Virus record (IMG/VR): IMGVR_UViG_3300022699_000291 | Location: 1-34,295 of that record | Strand: one strand, 5' to 3' | Length of the DNA stretch: 34,295 nt | Source: a virus | Shown here: piece after piece, positions 2,225 to 34,295 of the stretch | Layout of the letters: each line of letters opens with the position of its first letter | Numbering within the stretch: position 1 is the first letter of the stretch | Translations under genes and position numbers: made by a program | The notes under the pieces: generated by a model | Database searches by the model: none | What the model saw: the letters and a program-made list of their open reading frames with translations, nothing else | Told to the model about the DNA's origin: nothing

Positions 2225-4377
2225 ATGGTTCTGTCCCCTCTGGGCCTAAAATAAGGCTTAAATGCGTGTATTCGAAGGCTAGATTGGCCCGTCTCGTTCA
2301 TTGTAATCCTATGCTGGTACCCAAGGCCTCCTGCATATGCTCTTTTCCAAACTTTTGTTCTGTAAAACTTACGTAAATAGACTCCCCCTCCGGACGTATA
2401 TGTTCCAAAATCGGTAGCATCTATGCTGATATCAAAAGTGTTTGCATCGATGACAGTGACTAAGAACCCGATATCATTGATTTGACTCATCCCATTAACA
2501 CCATAGAGGAAGACCATATCATTTGTTGACCGACCATGCTGAAAGGAGGTAATTGTCACCCCTGCTGTAGCTGGTGATTTAGCGACCGCATTAGTGATAG
2601 GAGAGATGTAATTGAGATTTGGGAGGAAATCGATCTCTTGAGTGTGGTAGAAATCCTCATCATTGTCTTTATAAAATTGAATGTTTACCCTGGTTACTTG
2701 ATCAGTATCAACAAAGAAGTCGATGTATCCAAGCTGAGACTCTTTACCTTCTTCTTTGAAAGGAGCCCAATATGCTGAGTCGATTGTACATTCAATATCA
2801 CTGCCGTTGTCATCAGATCCGGTCTCTAGGACGTAGACTATGCCGTCGAAATCTCCTCCGACGAATAATTCAGTATTTCCGCTCATGAAAAAGGATAGCG
2901 CTGTAGTATTTCCGGCGTCTTTTGCTGCCCAATCAAGGTTATTGGCTACTGTAAAGTCCTCTGCGGCTAGATCTTGTGACACGTTTTGGGAATATCCCAA
3001 GACATTCATGTCGATTAGATACTTGCTCCATGAATTGGATTCTTCATCAAGAATGAGAGCTCCATTGGAGTCTGTGGAAACTACACTGGGATAAAGAGCC
3101 CATGTCCTTCTCTCGGAAAAGCTCCTTTTCACATAGACTTTCTCGAAAAAATCGTTATTGATCTCATCTGTGACGAAGTTTTGAATTCTTTCATCGATTC
3201 TCTTAGTGCTTACACCATCAGTTCCAGTAATTCCCCTATTGCCCATGGCAAAAATGTACCGATCGAATTCGGTTGAGGCCATTTTGGCGTCACAGGCCCT
3301 AAAGTCATTGATCTTATCCCACCTAAATGGTAGAGCCGGATCAGATGTAGGAGTAAGAGACCAAACAGAATTACTAAAGAGGACCACCAAAGAATTCTGA
3401 ATAAACCCGGCGGATATGATTTGTTCTCCTGTCGGCGCATCTACGAAACCTCCTTTGCCCGCGATGTTATCATCCCATGATGTAGAGCCATCAGGATTCT
3501 GTAACTGAGACCATCTGGCTCGTTGTGGATAGGTATTAGATCCTTCGAACGTATGAAGGAGTAGAAGTCTTCCTTTATAAGCATAGAGCAGCTTGCAGCC
3601 ATTAATGAAGGTGGCGGAATTGATTTGAGGCCTAAAGAGTGTGGTAGTAGTCGCTGAAGTTGTGTAATACCTTATCCCGTTTAGTCCCGATGGCGTGTCG
3701 TAGGATTTGCCATTTGTAAAATAGAGTCGATAAATCGTAGAAGAGCTCGTAGAAGCCGTAGAAGCCCAGTTATCAGAAACGACAAAATCAGTAACCGAAC
3801 TGTCGAAAATATCTGCATTATCAAGTGGCTGAAATCTTTGATTCGTTGAATCATAAATGGATGCCCTTTCTGTATCGAATGCTATGGTCTGTTTAACATT
3901 CTGAGGATCAACAAACTGTGATATTCCCATCACGCGTTCCCCAGGGATTATATAAACTACTCCTCCCGATGTCCAAGCCCCAAATCCTGTTGTGTCTACA
4001 TCATTTCCATCTGCATCTGTAAGCTCAAAAGTAGTGGCAGTGAGATTAGCTACAACATATTCATTCCCGTTGACTTCTGTCATTCCTGACACGTCCCAGA
4101 TGATGATAGAATCGCCATTGGTGAGATTGGTAGTGGATGTGACGGTAACCACTCCTGGATCAGCTTGACTAATGCCTGGGGCTACGATAACTAAGTTCGT
4201 CGAATGTCCATGGACTAATTTTCCAAGCTCATAAAATCCATTTCTCTTTTCTACGACTCCATGCTTGATATGGGCATTCTCTATATTTATAAATGCATCG
4301 GGAGGGATCATCCAAGGCTCGAGATCGGTATCTAATCCCGTTTGGAATGGAGCAATAAGAAATGGCTGATAGGACAT
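2221..4377 (-). CDS. gp10-like packaged-DNA stabilisation / tail hub protein with two FCCH-like domains
   Basis: 718 residues. The chosen ATG at 4377 follows GGAGGACGTTG and overlaps the preceding stop by one base (TGATG). The N-terminus (PWMIPPDAFINIENAHIKHG, then EKRNGFYELG) is the opening seen in the tail stabilisation proteins of short-tailed phages, such as P22 gp10 and its relatives. Two insertions have the pattern of the FCCH-like domain common in phage structural proteins. One is near residues 70-145 (GDSIIIWDVSGMTEVNG ... AWTSGGVVY). The other is near residues 600-680 (MVFLYGVNGMSQINDIG ... TYTSGGGVY). The rest is beta-rich. It should form the hub or nozzle closing the portal channel, next to the adaptor encoded upstream. 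Confidence 0.8.
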   Translation of the reverse strand: MSYQPFLIAPFQTGLDTDLEPWMIPPDAFINIENAHIKHGVVEKRNGFYELGKLVHGHSTNLVIVAPGISQADPGVVTVTSTTNLTNGDSIIIWDVSGMTEVNGNEYVVANLTATTFELTDADGNDVDTTGFGAWTSGGVVYIIPGERVMGISQFVDPQNVKQTIAFDTERASIYDSTNQRFQPLDNADIFDSSVTDFVVSDNWASTASTSSSTIYRLYFTNGKSYDTPSGLNGIRYYTTSATTTTLFRPQINSATFINGCKLLYAYKGRLLLLHTFEGSNTYPQRARWSQLQNPDGSTSWDDNIAGKGGFVDAPTGEQIISAGFIQNSLVVLFSNSVWSLTPTSDPALPFRWDKINDFRACDAKMASTEFDRYIFAMGNRGITGTDGVSTKRIDERIQNFVTDEINNDFFEKVYVKRSFSERRTWALYPSVVSTDSNGALILDEESNSWSKYLIDMNVLGYSQNVSQDLAAEDFTVANNLDWAAKDAGNTTALSFFMSGNTELFVGGDFDGIVYVLETGSDDNGSDIECTIDSAYWAPFKEEGKESQLGYIDFFVDTDQVTRVNIQFYKDNDEDFYHTQEIDFLPNLNYISPITNAVAKSPATAGVTITSFQHGRSTNDMVFLYGVNGMSQINDIGFLVTVIDANTFDISIDATDFGTYTSGGGVYLRKFYRTKVWKRAYAGGLGYQHRITMNETGQSSLRIHAFKPYFRPRGDRTI

Positions 4378-5066
4378 CAACGTCCTCCGATTATAATCGC
4401 CTGAAATTGTTGACTTCTAGCTCCACCAGAACCACTGGTAATAGCCAACGTTATGTCTGTTTTAACTCCCGCTACCGGTGCCGGTTTGGTTATGTAATTG
4501 ATTACGCGCTCGCTAGAGTTATCAGGAGCGAGGCATGTGAGCATTACCAGATAGTTAGAATTGAGCAAAACATCTGCATCCACTGAAATCTTATAAGTGT
4601 TTCCGACTTTAGCGTTTCCGGTCATATTAAGCCCAAAGCTAAGTGAGCCTGTATTGGTGAACTGGCCAAATGCAGTAATCATTTGGTTGATGCCGTACGA
4701 GGATTGGAATGTTGCCGGAGCAATCGGTGCATCAAAACGGAGATTAGAACACGAAACACCCTGTGATGTTCCTCCTAATCTTCCTCCTTGAGTAACTTGG
4801 ATGATGTTTGCTGGGTTTTGATCATCCATGATGTAGGCTTCTGACTCTTCGGTAGCCGCTCCTTTTGAGAACAGGAACATCATATCGTCTTCGCGGGTCG
4901 GATCGGTAGCTATTGGGCCTGCAACAGACTGTCTTCTGACCATATTGATGGTCCAAGGCTTGAGGGTTATGTCCCCTTCTTCGATCGCTGCCCAGTTATC
5001 GGTCAAGACCGTTGGATAATTTCTGATTTTTGTCAGGCTAGTAGGTAAATCTTTATCGTAAGCCAT
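4377..5066 (-). CDS. Virion structural protein, unknown
   Basis: 229 residues, starting MAYDKDLPTSLTKIRNYPTV after AAGGGG. There is a charged N-terminal half, then a beta-rich C-terminal half rich in Ser/Thr/Gly that ends SQQFQAIIIGGR. No signal peptide, transmembrane segment or catalytic motif is visible. It lies between the tail adaptor and gp10-like genes, and its stop overlaps the gp10-like start, so it is very likely a tail or neck component. The ASDV-like beta strands (KISVDADVLLNSNYLVMLTC) suggest a beta-sandwich or carbohydrate-binding-like fold. That is only an impression from the sequence pattern. Confidence 0.65.
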   Translation of the reverse strand: MAYDKDLPTSLTKIRNYPTVLTDNWAAIEEGDITLKPWTINMVRRQSVAGPIATDPTREDDMMFLFSKGAATEESEAYIMDDQNPANIIQVTQGGRLGGTSQGVSCSNLRFDAPIAPATFQSSYGINQMITAFGQFTNTGSLSFGLNMTGNAKVGNTYKISVDADVLLNSNYLVMLTCLAPDNSSERVINYITKPAPVAGVKTDITLAITSGSGGARSQQFQAIIIGGR

Positions 5067-7032: not shown

Positions 7033-7716
7033 TTAATCGATTTTTTCATTCATGTTTACTCTTCTTTTGTCTGCATGCACTTTCATGTGGCACTTATGGC
7101 ATAACCACTCCACTTCCAAAGGTTTCGAATAATCTTCGTGATGAGCATGAAGTTTTTCTTGAGCATCACATGAAGAGCAATAAAGGGGTTTTTCAATATC
7201 CCCTCTAAGAACAGCATTCCCAATGGCTGACCAAGCTCGCATTTTTTCTCTGTTTTTCTGTCTAAATACTTTAACAGCCTCAACTTTGCGTTTTTTACAT
7301 TCCTCTGAAAGATTCTTATAATATTCGCGCTGTTGAGCACAAAGATGCTCTTTATTTTGATCATAATATTTTTGGCTATACTTTCTTTTTTCTTCTTCTG
7401 ATAAATTCTTATACCTTTCTCGGCTTTTGGCATTAATTTCATCCCTATGAAGTTCGTAATATAATCGAGTAGAAGCACGTTTTTTCTCACGCTCTTCTTC
7501 TGACATATTTGCTTCACGCTCTTGCCAAAGATGTTTGTGAGTTTCGTAATGCTTTTTTCGAGTTTTCTTAACTGCATTGGGATTCTGTTTTCTCCAATTA
7601 AGCGTCATTTTATAGTGACAGGATTTACAAAAAGATTTAAGTCCCGATTTAAGGCGCTTATCCTTTCCAAATTCTTCACTTTTCTTATTTTCTCCACACT
7701 TTGTACATTTTTTCAT
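7033..7716 (-). CDS. Free-standing HNH endonuclease with N-terminal zinc ribbon
   Basis: 227 residues from ATG 7716, chosen because GGAGGTGGTT lies immediately upstream. An N-terminal zinc ribbon has Cys4, Cys7, Cys30 and Cys33 (CTKCGE ... FCKSCH). A long Lys/Glu-rich helical middle with repeated Y-Y-x-x-(N/H) blocks, of the YKNLSEE kind, leads to a C-terminal HNH nuclease. The nuclease has CSSC at 180-183, HAHHEDYSKPLEVEWLCHKC at 190-209 and a final His214. It should cut DNA using a metal held by the His residues, as homing-type HNH enzymes do. It sits alone between the coat and decoration genes and has no structural role. It is Lys-rich and lower in G+C than its neighbours, which fits a mobile, selfish gene. 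Confidence 0.85.
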   Translation of the reverse strand: MKKCTKCGENKKSEEFGKDKRLKSGLKSFCKSCHYKMTLNWRKQNPNAVKKTRKKHYETHKHLWQEREANMSEEEREKKRASTRLYYELHRDEINAKSRERYKNLSEEEKRKYSQKYYDQNKEHLCAQQREYYKNLSEECKKRKVEAVKVFRQKNREKMRAWSAIGNAVLRGDIEKPLYCSSCDAQEKLHAHHEDYSKPLEVEWLCHKCHMKVHADKRRVNMNEKID

Positions 7717-7766
7717 AACCACCTCCGGTTTCATGATAAATATCACAAAACAGGATTAATGTGTAG

Positions 7767-8711
7767 CTATGAGTGGGTGCTTTCAAGATTCAACATGAAC
7801 GAATCATTTAGAATTCTTGATACAAACGGGTGCTGCCAACCCACCGTTCCTCTTTGATGGAGAGGGTCAGCAGAACCAGCAGAACCAAGCGGTTCAATAT
7901 AGAACTCACCACTTTCCGATCCAAGATTGACAACGGCATAAGCTTCTTTACCAACGATAAAGTTGTTGTAAACCGGTGTGGCTGCGGAAGTTACGCTGCC
8001 AACAGAGGTATATAACCACCTAACGTTTTTTGTTGCCCCCCATTCAGAATCAAGTACTGTACGTTGTCCAGCGTAATTCGCGGTGGCCACAAATGAAGCA
8101 ACAGCTTCCAAATCATCAAGCAAAGCCGTGTCAATGTAACCCCAAAAAGCGGGTCTGACCGGTGATGTCGCAAAGGCATCCGTGCCCGTTACCACTTCCG
8201 ATATCATTTCTGCATCGTTATTAAGAAGTGTTTGGACTGCCGAGTCTATATCACTGCTACTTAGCTCTGTAGGCGTATTTCCATTTACACCATTTGAACA
8301 CTGGAGGACCGAACTGGTCGAAGCCAGAACGTCTCTTGTTACTTCATCCATCGTCTGCGCTAAGTTTTGCGCAAGAAGACGTGAAGATTCATTGAGAACC
8401 CGATCTTCAACCGTGAGCTCAACTTGGTTTGTGATGGTCACGAAATTACCGTAGAAGTCGACCCTAGCTTTAATATCTGTGGCCGACAGAGGTGCTCCCG
8501 GAGGAGTGATTCCGTCCTGTAATGGGACTGGAACAGTTGCTAGTCTTGCATAGCGGCGAAATACAATTGTATCCCCCATTTTTTCAGGCAGAACACGCTT
8601 TTGAGCGAATTTTGTATGAATCAACTGAGGGTAGGCCGTCATTAGCAAGAGGCGATCATAATAATCGCGTACTGCTGGTGGCAAAACTGCAACAGTAGTT
8701 ATATTAGACAT
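7767..8711 (-). CDS. Major capsid protein, N4-gp56 family
   Basis: 314 residues with an AGGAGAG site before ATG 8711. Residues 43-130 carry the family pattern: EKMGDTIVFRRYARLATVPV, then LQDGITPPGAPLSATDIKAR, then YGNFVTITNQVELTVEDRVL and an acidic/Gln-rich helix. The C-terminal part ends in the usual beta strands with SGEFYIEPLGSAG and GTVGWQHPFVSRI. It forms the icosahedral shell together with the scaffold encoded directly upstream. Length is near the family norm. This coat type paired with a P22-like portal is common in uncultured short-tailed phages. Confidence 0.88.
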   Translation of the reverse strand: MSNITTVAVLPPAVRDYYDRLLLMTAYPQLIHTKFAQKRVLPEKMGDTIVFRRYARLATVPVPLQDGITPPGAPLSATDIKARVDFYGNFVTITNQVELTVEDRVLNESSRLLAQNLAQTMDEVTRDVLASTSSVLQCSNGVNGNTPTELSSSDIDSAVQTLLNNDAEMISEVVTGTDAFATSPVRPAFWGYIDTALLDDLEAVASFVATANYAGQRTVLDSEWGATKNVRWLYTSVGSVTSAATPVYNNFIVGKEAYAVVNLGSESGEFYIEPLGSAGSADPLHQRGTVGWQHPFVSRILNDSFMLNLESTHS

Positions 8712-17188: not shown

Positions 17189-17323
17189 TTATGTTTTTTT
17201 TTTAGATTTCCCTGCTTTATTAAGTGCTATCGCAACCGCTTGTTTTCGCGGTTTTCCAGCCTCAAGTTCTGTGCGTATGTTCTTAGAAATTGTCTTCTTG
17301 CTCGAGCCTTTTTTCAATGGCAT
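17189..17323 (-). CDS. Small DUF6496-like phage protein (44 aa)
   Basis: 44 residues: [20 protein letters not shown] followed by [20 protein letters not shown] and KKKT. The AGKPxKQAVAIAxxKA pattern is a small family found in very many phages (DUF6496-like). It is strongly basic and helical and of unknown function. AGGAGGAG lies four bases upstream of ATG 17323, which is one of the best ribosome-binding sites in the genome. It overlaps the end of the preceding Cys-rich gene by 41 bases. Confidence 0.75.
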
Positions 17324-17498
17324 TGATCTCCTCCTGTAGACGGGTTTTCAAATACATCTTATTTATAAACTTATCGTCTCTAAAAGAGCTATTAAATCCA
17401 CTTTGGCAGGCCAAGCAGATGCCGGTAGGATTGCAAATAACGCACTGTTTGCACGCATTGCAAGTCATCCATTCTACATCTTCAATCTCTATGTCCAT
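17283..17498 (-). CDS. Small Cys-rich putative zinc-binding protein
   Basis: 71 residues. Six cysteines lie close together ([20 protein letters not shown] then CQSGF), giving C-x2-C-x2-C-x2-C and C-x2-C spacing. This suggests a zinc knuckle or ribbon. A charged helix follows ([20 protein letters not shown]). No clear Shine-Dalgarno precedes ATG 17498, so the start is uncertain. It could be a small regulator or anti-host protein, but no family was recognised. Confidence 0.55.
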
Positions 17499-17524
17499 GT
17501 ATTACATGATATACGATAGGCTTT

Positions 17525-17950
17525 TTATTTTCCATCCTTTTCTTCCATTTCCCAAACGAGAATTTCAGTGGACGGAACCTCGGAATAAAACTTCGAGCAA
17601 GTCAGCTCGGCTATCTGAGCATCATCGAGGTAAATCTTGCTGTTCATTACGTCCAAATAAAACTTTACATAATTGTCTAGGTCGGGCTTTTTGTAGCATG
17701 GATCTCCAAAATTGCATTTAAGCTCCCTTTTATCGAAGTTCTTGGGTGGAGCAATACCGAACCACATCTTAACCCCCAACGGCCCTCTCAGGCGCCTGGA
17801 AACGCCCGAATTTTTGATTTGCTTGTTGAGATTGATCTTCGCTTTTCGAACATCCATCGTTTGGATGCTATAAACCTTCCCTCGCTTAGTGTCCATTCGG
17901 GGCCTGATTTTTGGTTTTGGAGCCCCTGGCATGAGAAGATGTATTTTCAT
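17525..17950 (-). CDS. rusA: RusA-like Holliday junction resolvase
   Basis: 141 residues. The N-terminal MPGAPKPKIRPRMD strand-loop and the motif KKPDLDNYVKFYLDVMNSKI followed by YLDDAQIAEL are the RusA signature. Asp90, Asp92 and Asp110 are the likely metal-binding residues (Asp70, Asp72 and Asp91 in E. coli RusA). It cuts four-way junctions to leave linear, packageable DNA. It is near the family's usual size of about 120. AAGGA lies upstream, and the first 65 bases overlap the end of the initiator gene. Along with RecT and YqaJ it completes a phage recombination set. Confidence 0.88.
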   Translation of the reverse strand: MKIHLLMPGAPKPKIRPRMDTKRGKVYSIQTMDVRKAKINLNKQIKNSGVSRRLRGPLGVKMWFGIAPPKNFDKRELKCNFGDPCYKKPDLDNYVKFYLDVMNSKIYLDDAQIAELTCSKFYSEVPSTEILVWEMEEKDGK

Positions 17951-19109
17951 TTTGAGTCCTTCGTTTGTTGTTTCTTATGAATTTATGTAACCCCTCAATG
18001 AAGCCCTTTTCGGAATATCCTATCCGCTGTTGTCTATCTAAGTGTTTAACATGCATAGCCGTAACGTCGTCTCGAATCTCGAGTCCCGGCTTTAACTCAA
18101 TATCAAAGACTTTTTTATCCAAGCAGTAGAGTCTATTTTGTTCTGCTAACCTCTTCGCTCTTAATGCATTACTTTGCTCCAATTCCACAACATCAATAGC
18201 CTCTCTTCGCTGGCGAAGCATACTATTCCAGTGTTTTATCACTGCCGTAGGATGGCAAAACCTGTTTCTCCAAAATGTTGCGTCACCATGGGGAGATTCA
18301 AAAACCCACTCGAGGCCCATTCTCAGATCCACGATCTCAATGTTTTCTTTCTTAAGCGCATCTTGGAGGATTCTTTCCCAATGCTCAAAATCATAGAAGT
18401 TCTGCTCGGGATTGAGTCGCTTATTCCAATATCCGAGATATTTTACAGCTTCTTGAACATTCCAAATTTCTTCCTGTGGGGGGACTTTAGGGGGGGACTT
18501 TATAGTTTTCAGACTTATGGACTGAGGACTAGACAGCCCCTCTTTTATAGTATTTATCTTCTTATTATTTAGGGGTAGGGCGACTTCGGGGTTTATCTCC
18601 TTGGCACTAAGTTCATTAGAATCCAAACCCCAAGGGGTCAAAGGAGCCCTTGGTAAAGATTCTTTTAGTTTAGATCTATCTTCCTGTTTTTCTGTAGCTT
18701 GCCACTTAGATTTTGTAGTTATCAACCAAGGGGTCAAAGGAGCCCTTGGTACTTTTTTATTTAAAACAGGAGCCCTTGGTAAAGATTCTTTTAGTTTGGC
18801 AGCCTCTTTAGGATTTTCGAAAAAGATAAGACTCACTCTTTCGAACCTTCCCGTCTTTGAATTTCGTCTTTTTTCTTTGACCAGATACCCTTTGGCCTCA
18901 AGCTTTCTAAAAGTCGAGTAAAGTTTTTTCTTCCCAATATGAAGGTGTTTCTTAAGAAACTCTATGGTGATTTCTTTGTCGGGATGTTCTGCGAAGACTA
19001 TTAAAAGCAACGATCGCTCTTCACAAGTAAAAGAAGGATTCTTGCTAATTGGTCTAGTGAGAATGGTAAAGGGCTCGTTCTTAGAATGTGTGCATTTATT
19101 TTGTCTCAT
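17886..19109 (-). CDS. Putative replication initiator, winged-helix N-terminus (lambda O-like layout)
   Basis: 407 residues from ATG 19109, which overlaps the preceding stop (ATGA). Residues about 1-100 look like a winged helix (EEITIEFLKKH-like recognition part, KLYSTFRKLEAKGYLVKEKR, then ERVSLIFFENPKEA). They match the two smaller proteins encoded upstream. The middle (about 110-180) is low in structure and contains repeated LKESLPRAP and PRAPLTPW blocks. The C-terminal half, with LEWVFESPHGDATFWRNRFC and IKHWNSMLRQRREA, is helical and looks like the helicase-loader/DnaD-type half of phage initiators. DNA repeats in the middle could be the origin itself. No polymerase or helicase is encoded nearby, so host factors would be recruited. 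Confidence 0.65.
   Translation of the reverse strand: MRQNKCTHSKNEPFTILTRPISKNPSFTCEERSLLLIVFAEHPDKEITIEFLKKHLHIGKKKLYSTFRKLEAKGYLVKEKRRNSKTGRFERVSLIFFENPKEAAKLKESLPRAPVLNKKVPRAPLTPWLITTKSKWQATEKQEDRSKLKESLPRAPLTPWGLDSNELSAKEINPEVALPLNNKKINTIKEGLSSPQSISLKTIKSPPKVPPQEEIWNVQEAVKYLGYWNKRLNPEQNFYDFEHWERILQDALKKENIEIVDLRMGLEWVFESPHGDATFWRNRFCHPTAVIKHWNSMLRQRREAIDVVELEQSNALRAKRLAEQNRLYCLDKKVFDIELKPGLEIRDDVTAMHVKHLDRQQRIGYSEKGFIEGLHKFIRNNKRRTQNENTSSHARGSKTKNQAPNGH
18630..18797. repeat. Iteron-like repeats in initiator gene, candidate replication origin
   Basis: An exact 26-base repeat occurs at 18630-18655 and 18726-18751. It contains an inverted repeat (CCAAGGG then CCCTTGG). A second exact repeat of 29 bases occurs at 18643-18671 and 18769-18797. 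The shared core AGGAGCCCTTGGTA therefore occurs three times (18642, 18738, 18768). Lambda and its relatives hold their origin as repeats inside the O gene. The match to that layout is the main argument. Confidence 0.55.
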
Positions 19110-19504
19110 GCCAACCACCCCCTCCTAGATATTTCAATATGTTTTTGGGCTTCTTCTTCCGTTTGGGGCTGAGGAATTATATCAACGCCTTGTGAAAGAA
19201 GTTGCCGAAGTTCTTCAGGATTCTCATAAAATTTTAAGGCATATCGGATGCATTGTTTGGAGACGGGGTGAATTAGCTTTTTCTTATAAAGATAAAAGTT
19301 TTTTTCCAGTGGTTTAAGCCACCTGTAGATAGTTTTCCTAGATTTTTCATAAATAAATTGTAGATCAGTAATGCTGACTTCGCGTACATGACGAAGCCGA
19401 AGCGCGTCTAAAAGCAAAACTTTTGAATTGTTTGGGAGGTTTTTATCGTCTAATGCTTGTGTATATGGACGTGATTTGCTATGTTCGGAACGTATTACAG
19501 GCAT
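19106..19504 (-). CDS. Winged-helix-like protein, paralogue 2
   Basis: 132 residues from ATG 19504 (GGAGGACCCC upstream), beginning MPVIRSEHSKSRPYTQ. It shares a line of features with the paralogue encoded just before it: MPVIR start, an SITDLQFIYEKSRKTIYRWL helix-turn-helix, YLYKKKLIHPVSKQCIRYAL, KFYENPEELRQLLSQG, DIIPQPQTEEEAQKHIEISR. Its stop overlaps the start of the initiator gene, which carries the same module. It may regulate transcription or load the initiator. It follows a strong hairpin terminator, so its expression may need antitermination. Confidence 0.65.
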   Translation of the reverse strand: MPVIRSEHSKSRPYTQALDDKNLPNNSKVLLLDALRLRHVREVSITDLQFIYEKSRKTIYRWLKPLEKNFYLYKKKLIHPVSKQCIRYALKFYENPEELRQLLSQGVDIIPQPQTEEEAQKHIEISRRGWLA

Positions 19505-19534
19505 GGGGTCCTCCATGTTTAATGTGATTTTCTG

Positions 19535-19563
19535 AAAAGAGTCGGTCCGCTACCGGCTCTTTT
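19535..19563 (-). terminator. Strong hairpin terminator between early paralogues (tR1-like)
   Basis: A 12-base stem (AAAAGAGTCGGT with ACCGGCTCTTTT, one G-U pair) closes a five-base loop, followed by T residues on either strand. It lies in the 65-base gap between the two winged-helix genes of the leftward early operon, in the position that tR1 holds between lambda cro and cII. This implies control by termination of transcription entering the replication genes. Confidence 0.75.
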
Positions 19564-19569
19564 GCTTTC

Positions 19570-20019
19570 TCACTTTGATCTCTTCTTACGTTTCTTCCAA
19601 GTACTTTCTTTTTGAGTCTTCTCACGTCTGGCAATTTCTATATGGGGCTTGGCCTCTAGCTTTGTCCTGGGCTGAGGACATATGTCTTTGCCTTTGTTCA
19701 AAAGAATTCGGAGCGTCTTAGGACTCTCATAGAAATAAAGCGCATGCCGGATTACCCTCTTCGTTTTTGGATGTATTATCTTCTTCCTAAACAAATATCC
19801 TGCTTTTTCGAATACATTGAGCATGGTCGTAATAGAGCGCAGAGAGAGGTTATAACGCCATCGAAGGTAGCCAATGGTAATCTCCTCCTCATGTGTGTCG
19901 ATGATGATGTTGATGAGCACAGAACGCATCCTATGGGGGATGTCTGGATCTAGGAGCAGTCCCGTGGAGATAAGGGTGAACTGGCTTGTGCAGCGCATAG
20001 TTCGTCTTATAACAGGCAT
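19570..20019 (-). CDS. Winged-helix-like protein, paralogue 1
   Basis: 149 residues starting MPVIRRTMRCTSQFTLI, with AGGAGGATTCT before the ATG. Helix-turn-helix and wing segments are seen as EEITIGYLRWRYNLSLRSIT, NVFEKAGYLFRKKIIHPKTK, RVIRHALYFYESPKTLRILL and KGKDICPQPRTKLEAKPHIE. These align closely with paralogue 2 and the N-terminus of the initiator. The C-terminal tail is very basic (TQKESTWKKRKKRSK). It follows the Cro-like gene and precedes the terminator, so it is the lambda cII-position gene by layout, though not by family. A regulator or accessory origin binder is likely. Confidence 0.65.
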   Translation of the reverse strand: MPVIRRTMRCTSQFTLISTGLLLDPDIPHRMRSVLINIIIDTHEEEITIGYLRWRYNLSLRSITTMLNVFEKAGYLFRKKIIHPKTKRVIRHALYFYESPKTLRILLNKGKDICPQPRTKLEAKPHIEIARREKTQKESTWKKRKKRSK

Positions 20020-20030
20020 AGAATCCTCCT

Positions 20031-20270
20031 CTATTGTGAGTCCCAGAACGTATCCAGGAAATGTGTCAGGTCTTTTTCATCTTTGTCCCCAAGCATATCC
20101 TCAAAGGTAACCTTCCCTTTGGTGATGTAGTGTATCTGGAAAGCCATAAGCAATTTCGGGCTTCCCCTCTTAAGTTTGATTCTCACGACCGTGTGGTTGT
20201 TTACTTCGAGGAGGCTAGCCATCTCCTCTACACTGATATTAAATTCTTTCATCCATCGATCTAAGTCCAT
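20031..20270 (-). CDS. Small HTH (Cro-like) repressor
   Basis: 79 residues from ATG 20270 (GGAG upstream), MDLDRWMKEFNISVEEMASL then LEVNNHTVVRIKLKRGSPKL. This is a helix-turn-helix of the Cro/CI type, with the pattern M-A-x-L-L-x-V-x-x-x-T-V recognised near residues 15-30. The C-terminal part ends in an acidic helix. It is the first gene of the leftward early transcript and faces the rightward promoter and operator at 20348-20400, so it probably controls the divergent region. No larger CI-like repressor was found. Confidence 0.7.
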   Translation of the reverse strand: MDLDRWMKEFNISVEEMASLLEVNNHTVVRIKLKRGSPKLLMAFQIHYITKGKVTFEDMLGDKDEKDLTHFLDTFWDSQ

Positions 20271-20347
20271 GATTTTCAACTCCTTTTTTCTTAAGCTCTT
20301 AATATTTGAAGGGTTAGCGATCTTTTTTGTTGAAATGATTTATTGCC

Positions 20348-20376
20348 TTGCGGTTATTTCTGCGCCATGCTAACAT
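20348..20376 (+). promoter_or_regulatory. Sigma70-like rightward early promoter candidate
   Basis: TTGCGG and TAACAT lie 17 bases apart in the divergent gap. Four of six bases match in each box. Initiation near 20383 would place the start at the edge of the operator palindrome and about 45 bases before the first rightward gene. Confidence 0.5.
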
Positions 20377-20386
20377 GTATATCAAT

Positions 20387-20400
20387 TACACGGAAGTGTA
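20387..20400. promoter_or_regulatory. Palindromic operator candidate
   Basis: TACAC-GGAA-GTGTA is a perfect inverted repeat just downstream of the rightward promoter -10 box, where a bound repressor would block transcription. The Cro-like protein encoded on the opposite strand is the natural partner. No second full copy was found nearby. Confidence 0.5.
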
Positions 20401-20428
20401 GAACCGGCGGAAGCCAAAGGAGACTAAT

Positions 20429-31415: not shown

Positions 31416-31444
31416 TTGAAGAAAATAAAGTCGGTGTATATAAT
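31416..31444 (+). promoter_or_regulatory. Strong sigma70 promoter for small cassette
   Basis: TTGAAG (31416-31421) and TATAAT (31439-31444) are exactly 17 bases apart: four of six and six of six matches to consensus. Transcription would begin about 31450-31452, at or next to the first gene's ATG. It points away from the fibre operon, into the + strand cassette. Confidence 0.8.
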
Positions 31445-31451
31445 GTAATAC

Positions 31452-31610
31452 ATGGACGAAGAGCAAGAAAAGACTACCAACATTCTTATCAGGCTGACTC
31501 GGAAAGAGAAATACCGCATCCGAAAGGAAGCTCTGGAGAGAAATGTTACGATTTCAACGCTTATGAAGCAGGCGTTTTTGCACTATGTTAATACTTTTAC
31601 CAGGGACTGA
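31452..31610 (+). CDS. Ribbon-helix-helix-like regulator, leaderless
   Basis: 52 residues: MDEEQEKTTNILIRLTRKEK, then YRIRKEALERNVTISTLMKQ and AFLHYVNTFTRD. The strand TTNILIRLT followed by two helices, with the EALERNVTISTLMKQA turn, is the Arc/MetJ-type ribbon-helix-helix layout. Such proteins bind DNA as dimers. No Shine-Dalgarno precedes the ATG and the promoter's predicted start falls on it, so translation is probably leaderless, as with lambda CI. It may repress its own promoter or regulate the fibre operon on the other strand. Confidence 0.7.
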   Translation: MDEEQEKTTNILIRLTRKEKYRIRKEALERNVTISTLMKQAFLHYVNTFTRD

Positions 31611-33445: not shown

Positions 33446-34295
33446 GGCAATCTATACCCTTTTTGTAAAAATTGAGGGACTTCGGTTTTCTTTATTTTTC
33501 CCACTTTTCCTAAAGGAGAAATAATAGGCGTTTCATCCGCTGCTGAATCTTGTTCAGCTAGAAAAACATCTTGGGCAAGAATGGCATCATCGTATTTTTG
33601 GATTAGGACTTTTTGATCCTCTTTGATCATATTTTCTGCAATTTTGTCTGCTGTTGCTGAGTCTATATTTTGTGTCCCATAATGATCGAAAACTTTTCTT
33701 TTTGCCTCATTAAATAGTTTATTAATTTGTTCGCCGGCAAGACTTTGAGCCAAAAGCAAACGTCTTCCTTCAGGGGAGTTATTTAATCTGGGAAACCTTT
33801 GCTTAAAATCCCTAATCTCAAAGTTGGTTACATTCCCTCCGTAAGACTCCTTTGCATTCGCTGTGTATCTGTTCAATGTTTTAACGTAAAGCTGTGTTTC
33901 TGGACTTGCTTTTGCGGGAAGAATGATTTCCCCTGTTAAGGGATTTACATTTAAACTAAAGGCTTTAGGAAGTTTGTCCGAATCATTTAGTCTTTGTAAT
34001 GTTTGATACCCTCTTATATTTTCATCTATAACTTTTACTTTTTCAGTAAGCTTGTCATACCTAACATTATTCTCTTTAAGTAGGTCCGTTTTGAGGGCAA
34101 CTCGTTCCTTTGGAGTCCTTTCCCCGAATATATCTACCTCCGGAAACTCAAACGTAGCTTTTTCTGCTTCCGTAAGCCTGCCGTCAGGTCCCGTTACTGC
34201 CTCTTGGAAGGATGCTGTTTCTTGTATAGCTTGTCCCGGTTGAGCCCCAACTTCTTGTGCACCTGGTAACGCTCCTTGACCAGGAGGAAGCCCGA
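33442..34295 (-). CDS. Probable virion/DNA-ejection protein, C-terminal part (continues at window start)
   Basis: In frame with the coding at 1-676 once the repeated 99 bases are counted once. This part carries VTGPDGRLTEAEKATFEFPE, then FGERTPKERVALKTDLLKEN and RYTANAKESYGGNVTNFEIR. The C-terminus is NIDSATADKIAENMIKEDQK-like and ends LQKGYRLP. It is helical and charged, with no metal or catalytic motif. The whole protein is 476 residues. The stop overlaps the start of the next gene by ATGA. Confidence 0.75.
   Translation of the reverse strand, partial: GLPPGQGALPGAQEVGAQPGQAIQETASFQEAVTGPDGRLTEAEKATFEFPEVDIFGERTPKERVALKTDLLKENNVRYDKLTEKVKVIDENIRGYQTLQRLNDSDKLPKAFSLNVNPLTGEIILPAKASPETQLYVKTLNRYTANAKESYGGNVTNFEIRDFKQRFPRLNNSPEGRRLLLAQSLAGEQINKLFNEAKRKVFDHYGTQNIDSATADKIAENMIKEDQKVLIQKYDDAILAQDVFLAEQDSAADETPIISPLGKVGKIKKTEVPQFLQKGYRLP
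34197..34295. repeat. Terminal direct repeat, right copy (circular junction)
   Basis: Exact copy of bases 1-99, and part of the same protein-coding frame. It should be removed when the circle is closed, leaving 34,196 bp. Confidence 0.95.

Follow-up and report, generated by a model that had tools for sequence, protein, structure and literature searches.

Two adjacent stand-alone proteins, hereafter designated as A and B, and the first ~109 residues of the neighboring protein C were confirmed by sequence comparison to be homologous winged-helix domains encoded side by side in a virus DNA of 34,295 nt (IMG/VR record IMGVR_UViG_3300022699_000291, positions 1-34,295; this whole stretch is referred to as the window). 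The DNA-binding domains of initiators are usually regarded as parts of the initiator. In this uncultured phage, as well as in several related ones, they also exist as separate genes immediately preceding the initiator gene; one such case is apparently the leftover of an initiator swap, and the phage described here has a conserved pair. The initiator family is a known one, but two free-standing copies that have a conserved tail in common represent a variant not described before, with a possible regulatory role in replication. Turnover of initiators could be a source of new phage replication regulators, a testable route for which the intact initiator, the stub and the retained pair provide a natural series for study.

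Gene run and homology of the three domains

The ends of the window form a perfect 99-bp direct repeat (1-99 and 34197-34295), so that the assembly, of ~34.2 kb, is likely to be a complete genome. Its genes encode a portal, a major head protein, a terminase, and RecT-like and RecE-like recombination proteins. Amid the structural genes, and adjoining the major head gene, is a CDS (7033-7746) whose translation, as judged by eye, resembles an HNH endonuclease with zinc-finger-type cysteines. The capsid protein (7767-8711) has relatives in 137 IMG/VR contigs, with 77-90% identity among the 80 matches listed, and this phage group is apparently widespread; a terminase search of genomes revealed only two short MAG contigs labeled Actinomycetes, too few to name a host. 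A 28-nt inverted repeat pair (17487-17514 and 31436-31463, 89% complementary) occurs around CATGTATTACATG, as a similar promoter- or operator-like block at the start of the gene at 17283-17498 and in the 31.4 kb gap.

The genes for D, A, B, C and a RusA-like resolvase form a closely packed, leftward run on one strand, with ribosome binding sites (RBSs), and comprise the following features:

20031..20270, minus strand: D, Cro-like helix-turn-helix protein heading the operon
19570..20019, minus strand: A, stand-alone winged-helix protein of 149 aa (pI 10.6), the first paralogue downstream of D
19624..19716, minus strand: A tail, residues 102-132 (TLRILLNKGKDICPQPRTKLEAKPHIEIARR); the protein end beyond it is rich in lysine and arginine
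19535..19563, minus strand: hairpin in the A/B gap with 12-nt arms and a UUUU end, weakly resembling an intrinsic terminator
19106..19504, minus strand: B, stand-alone winged-helix protein of 132 aa
19121..19213, minus strand: B tail, residues 98-128 (ELRQLLSQGVDIIPQPQTEEEAQKHIEISRR)
17886..19109, minus strand: C, putative replication initiator of 407 aa
18783..19109, minus strand: N-terminal winged-helix domain of C
18768..18781, no strand assigned: iteron half-site (AGGAGCCCTTGGTA)
18726..18749, no strand assigned: iteron 2, identical to iteron 1
18630..18653, no strand assigned: iteron 1 (CCAAGGGGTCAAAGGAGCCCTTGG), a 24-bp semi-palindrome; putative origin within gene C
17525..17950, minus strand: RusA-like Holliday junction resolvase, downstream of C (PF05866, E 6.6e-22)

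The coordinates and frames of the three modules are as given in an earlier note on this DNA. The RBS of A (gaggagg) lies a short distance upstream of its ATG, and the stop codon of B overlaps the start codon of C (ATGA). The hairpin between A and B (-15.9 kcal/mol, z -3.8) is absent from the output of a consensus terminator scan; acting as a weak terminator, it would give more A than B and C.

The homology of the three modules, proposed in the earlier note, was borne out. A and B are 42% identical, and their local alignment (score 244) reached a Z of 39 against 1000 shuffles, with values of 15 for A and 10 for B when each was aligned with the N-terminal domain of C; none of the 1000 shuffles equalled the score of any of these pairs, and the neighboring Cro-like D remained at |Z| < 2 in the same test. 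C (1e-18), A (9e-18) and B (3e-16) were each regained by leave-one-out profiles, and a profile holding neither A nor B still found the two, at 6e-9 and 5e-6, respectively, so that the mutual profile scores, which had been named as a check, are significant among all three. In hhalign comparisons, the A/B profile matched an independent alignment of phage-initiator N-domains with a probability of 96% (E 3.8e-9) versus 0.2% for the Cro-like family of D, and no homology of D with A, B or C was found by the shuffles and hhalign. The family thus matched is that of phage initiator N-domains (phrog_1456/11718/4707), with significant profile matches for C and A (phrog_1456, E 5.5e-7 and 2.5e-5, respectively); B alone reached 0.055 and is linked through its identity with A. 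Matches to phrog_186 were at 0.0013 for C, 0.014 for A and 0.018 for B. Pfam RepA_N (PF06970) gave no match for any of the three up to E 1, and HTH_36 (PF13730) remained below its gathering cut-off of 25 bits, with 18.3 bits for C, 12.8 bits for B and none for A.

The motif layout described earlier as common to the three modules is present as stated, except that IHPxxK and PQP are limited to A and B: C carries RNSKTG where the others have IHPxxK, and its PRAP repeats, PRAP having been taken as the counterpart of PQP, are a translation of the iterons.

AlphaFold2 predicted a confident winged helix for A (mean pLDDT 80), whose elements (H29-42, H49-56, H60-73, E76-82, E89-96, H100-108) follow the same order, at nearly equal residue numbers, as those of the C model (H29-40, H49-56, H60-72, E76-82, E89-97, H100-109). 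The comparison of models thus revealed one fold layout for A and C, and not the different folds that would have spoken against the earlier proposal. Among the structures matched by the A model are 4pql/4pt7, the N-domains of RepA_N initiators (Z 8.2, 88 residues), and the top matches of the C N-domain include primosomal DnaB 5wtn (Z 8.1), RctB domain 1, 4pql/4pt7/5kbj (Z 6.5-6.7 for 4pql/4pt7) and DnaD 2v79; for both A and C, the scores of further winged helices are only slightly lower. Since unrelated winged helices also reach a Z near 8, the fold alone is no proof of kinship, and the claim is carried by the sequence profiles.

Protein C and its iterons

C is composed of the winged-helix N-domain (residues 1-109), a linker encoded by the iterons, and a helical C-terminal half that AlphaFold2 modeled, as everything outside the N-domain, with low confidence and for which no relative was detectable. 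The iterons (18630-18781) correspond to codons ~110-160, directly after the N-domain, and C therefore displays a RepA_N-like architecture, in which semi-palindromic iterons within the rep gene code for the linker between the N- and C-domains. Rep boxes were reported in the linker-coding part of the pSK41 rep gene (PMC5703833), and the iterons of RepA_N proteins are of semi-palindromic form (PMC7145576). In-gene repeats were also identified in the initiator genes of eight relatives (L002, L004, L007, L009, L030, L034, L035 and G057), and none were found in those of L014, L027, L033, L164, L166 and L170. Based on these repeats, the pSK41-type architecture and the semi-palindromic iterons, C is most likely an ordinary RepA_N/DnaD-like initiator with an in-gene origin, its N-terminal winged helix presumably binding the iterons inside its own gene. 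GC skew at third codon positions did not support an origin at 18.6 kb (p 0.26).

A C-terminal tail common to C and other initiators was considered and rejected, as C was not regained by leave-one-out searches, and only L014 and L004 were (6e-4). A short block (Y.e..F...L.n.LRK) ends initiators with differing N-domains (L014, L033, L004, L028 and L003), with the same leave-one-out support being limited to L014 and L004.

Origin and possible role of A and B

In a 14-row tree, A, B and C formed one clade (99/99) with A and B grouped within it (99/96). When ten members of this phage group and the two proteins of Gordonia phage VanLee (see below) were added to these rows, giving 26, the A+B clade was retained (98/98), while support for A+B+C fell to 55/97. 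The local gene expansion put forward in the earlier note is thus well supported as regards the duplication yielding A and B; that C belongs to the same expansion is what the best tree indicates, but weakly so once near relatives are included. A peptide-pattern search of viral and genome collections revealed no close relative of A, B or C, and tblastn searches with A had no match among phages.

A and B are most alike in their tails, where 19 of 31 residues are identical (61%) versus 16 of 59 (27%) in the helical core, a difference (Fisher p 0.003) to be read with segment boundaries picked after the alignment was seen and from a single sequence pair. Only 9 of the 19 identical tail residues use the same codon, which points to constraint at the protein level rather than recent conversion. 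C lacks this tail, and no other protein carrying it was found among the loci gathered. Because the tail is so much better conserved than the DNA-reading core, A and B are probably not plain stubs and both probably functional, the evidence being suggestive rather than conclusive. The likeness of the tails suggests a common partner or a dimer interface. The predicted recognition helices (A, LSLRSITTMLNVFEK; B, KSRKTIYRWLKPLEK; C, IGKKKLYSTFRKLEA) differ at most positions; A and B may therefore read different DNA sites, and simple competition of the three proteins for the same iterons appears less likely. No repeated site that could represent an A or B operator was found in the 20271-20428 gap.

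From the homology, the gene order, the iterons and the conservation of the tail, we infer DNA binding, a replication role for C and a regulatory one for A and B. The scenario that we favor, and to which we give an even chance of holding as a whole, combines a RepA_N/DnaD-like initiator (C) with two retained free N-domains of the same family, devoid of the replication half (A and B). The free N-domain would derive from that of an initiator, through its duplication or as a remnant left by the replacement of an initiator, and would then have been duplicated into A and B, both copies being retained as functional DNA-binding proteins. Divergence from each other and from C would have affected the reading heads, with the wing and the 31-residue tail staying similar. 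The likeliest role of A and B would be control of the replication operon and/or of the origin, the two reading different sites, with the tail that they have in common serving to contact one and the same partner or to dimerize.

The main rival to this regulatory role is that A and B serve as accessory proteins at the origin, co-oligomerizing with C and either helping or limiting initiation at the iterons, in keeping with the help or competition at the origin suggested in the earlier note. RepA_N N-domains bind iterons and oligomerize, as dimers and tetramers (PMC5703833, PMC7145576), and in plasmid pIGRK a short Rep form antagonizes full-length Rep, even though this form lacks its N-terminal part and therefore retains the opposite end of the protein (PMC6854812). 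That the genes for A, B and C are packed closely together in a single run is also in line with joint action, which the divergence of their recognition helices argues against, and we regard this alternative as possible but tentative. A bolder reading, in which A and B differ in DNA specificity, have a docking tail in common and cooperate with C in setting the time and frequency of origin firing, seems improbable to us; if true, it would represent a regulated initiator complex built from paralogous DNA-binding heads.

Relatives of this phage, gathered by capsid and terminase searches, bear on a further alternative, namely that A and B are non-functional N-domains remaining after recombination downstream of the domain replaced the initiator gene. 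In most of the 34 records with the region in view, D is separated by a gap from a single initiator, next to which lies RusA or a different gene of nuclease type, and extra initiator-type winged helices were found in 4-5 (G003, G014, G057, G068 and, more weakly, G051). In G057 (L171, G057:C1:30700-33700), a solo gene ends short of the wing; it has 73% DNA identity, across 124 nt, with the beginning of the G059 initiator region, and overlaps (ATGA) another initiator, one that resembles that of G046; since the two genes resemble different initiators, this looks like a stub remaining after initiator replacement. The 89-aa solo gene preceding a lambda-O-type initiator in G014 is of the same tenor. 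G068 (L174, G068:C1:2000-8300, 2267-4784) has three consecutive winged-helix genes encoding a lambda-O-like protein of 111 aa, a 232-aa protein, and a 381-aa initiator paralogous to the latter (Z 11.9). Together with the VanLee tandem described below, G014 and G068 provide precedents for the order of A, B and C. A 247-aa winged-helix protein of L004 was discarded as a paralogue of the L004 initiator (pairwise Z 0.8), though both match the same family. As an explanation of A and B, the stub hypothesis is unlikely, since both are full-length domains with RBSs and their tails, missing from C, are 61% identical with largely different codons.

Finally, the earlier suggestion that one copy gained a replication half, read here as the duplication of a stand-alone regulator with C as the acquiring copy, probably has the direction backwards. 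Two-part initiators make up most of the family, including its staphylococcal, lactobacillar, Bacteroides, Arthrobacter and Agrobacterium members and most of this phage group, and the simpler reading is that A and B lost, or never copied, the replication half. A gain by C is therefore very improbable despite the stand-alone members of ~105 aa found in the streptococcal phages phiNJ2 and IPP15; a single clade of all stand-alone members was rejected (p-AU 0.003 and 0.005), and these forms thus appear to have arisen several times.

Comparison with known systems

The RepA_N plasmid initiators (pSK41 and pTZ2162 RepA; 4pql, 4pt7, 4pta, 5kbj) and the PLE RepA resemble C in their winged-helix N-domain, semi-palindromic iterons and separate C-domain, with the pSK41 iterons being located inside the rep gene and coding for the linker, as in C; their N-domains are among the fold matches of the A and C models, at scores that other winged helices nearly reach. 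In contrast to these initiators, C has no PF06970 match and a C-terminal half with no detectable relative, and free-standing N-domain paralogues beside rep are not described in the RepA_N papers cited here.

Lambda O type initiators (PF04492) share with C the origin repeats within the initiator gene and the upstream Cro-like gene; C itself has no PF04492 match, while some relatives in the group do (L030).

The phage HTH_36-type initiators (Staphylococcus phiETA3 Rep, Lactobacillus Lj965, the LL-H "dnaA analog" and Bacteroides C1_85S2P; phrog_1456/4707/428) have an N-domain of the same family as A, B and C and, as here, adjoin replication or recombination genes, but, unlike A, B and C, were present only once per genome in the eight phage records examined. 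Gordonia phage VanLee, in which gp44 (101 aa) and gp45 (270 aa), both annotated as "RepA-like replication initiator", stand in tandem and are followed by a DnaB helicase, has one solo copy that ends shortly past the wing, but shares with the window the arrangement of a free N-domain of ~100 aa placed directly before a full initiator of the same family.
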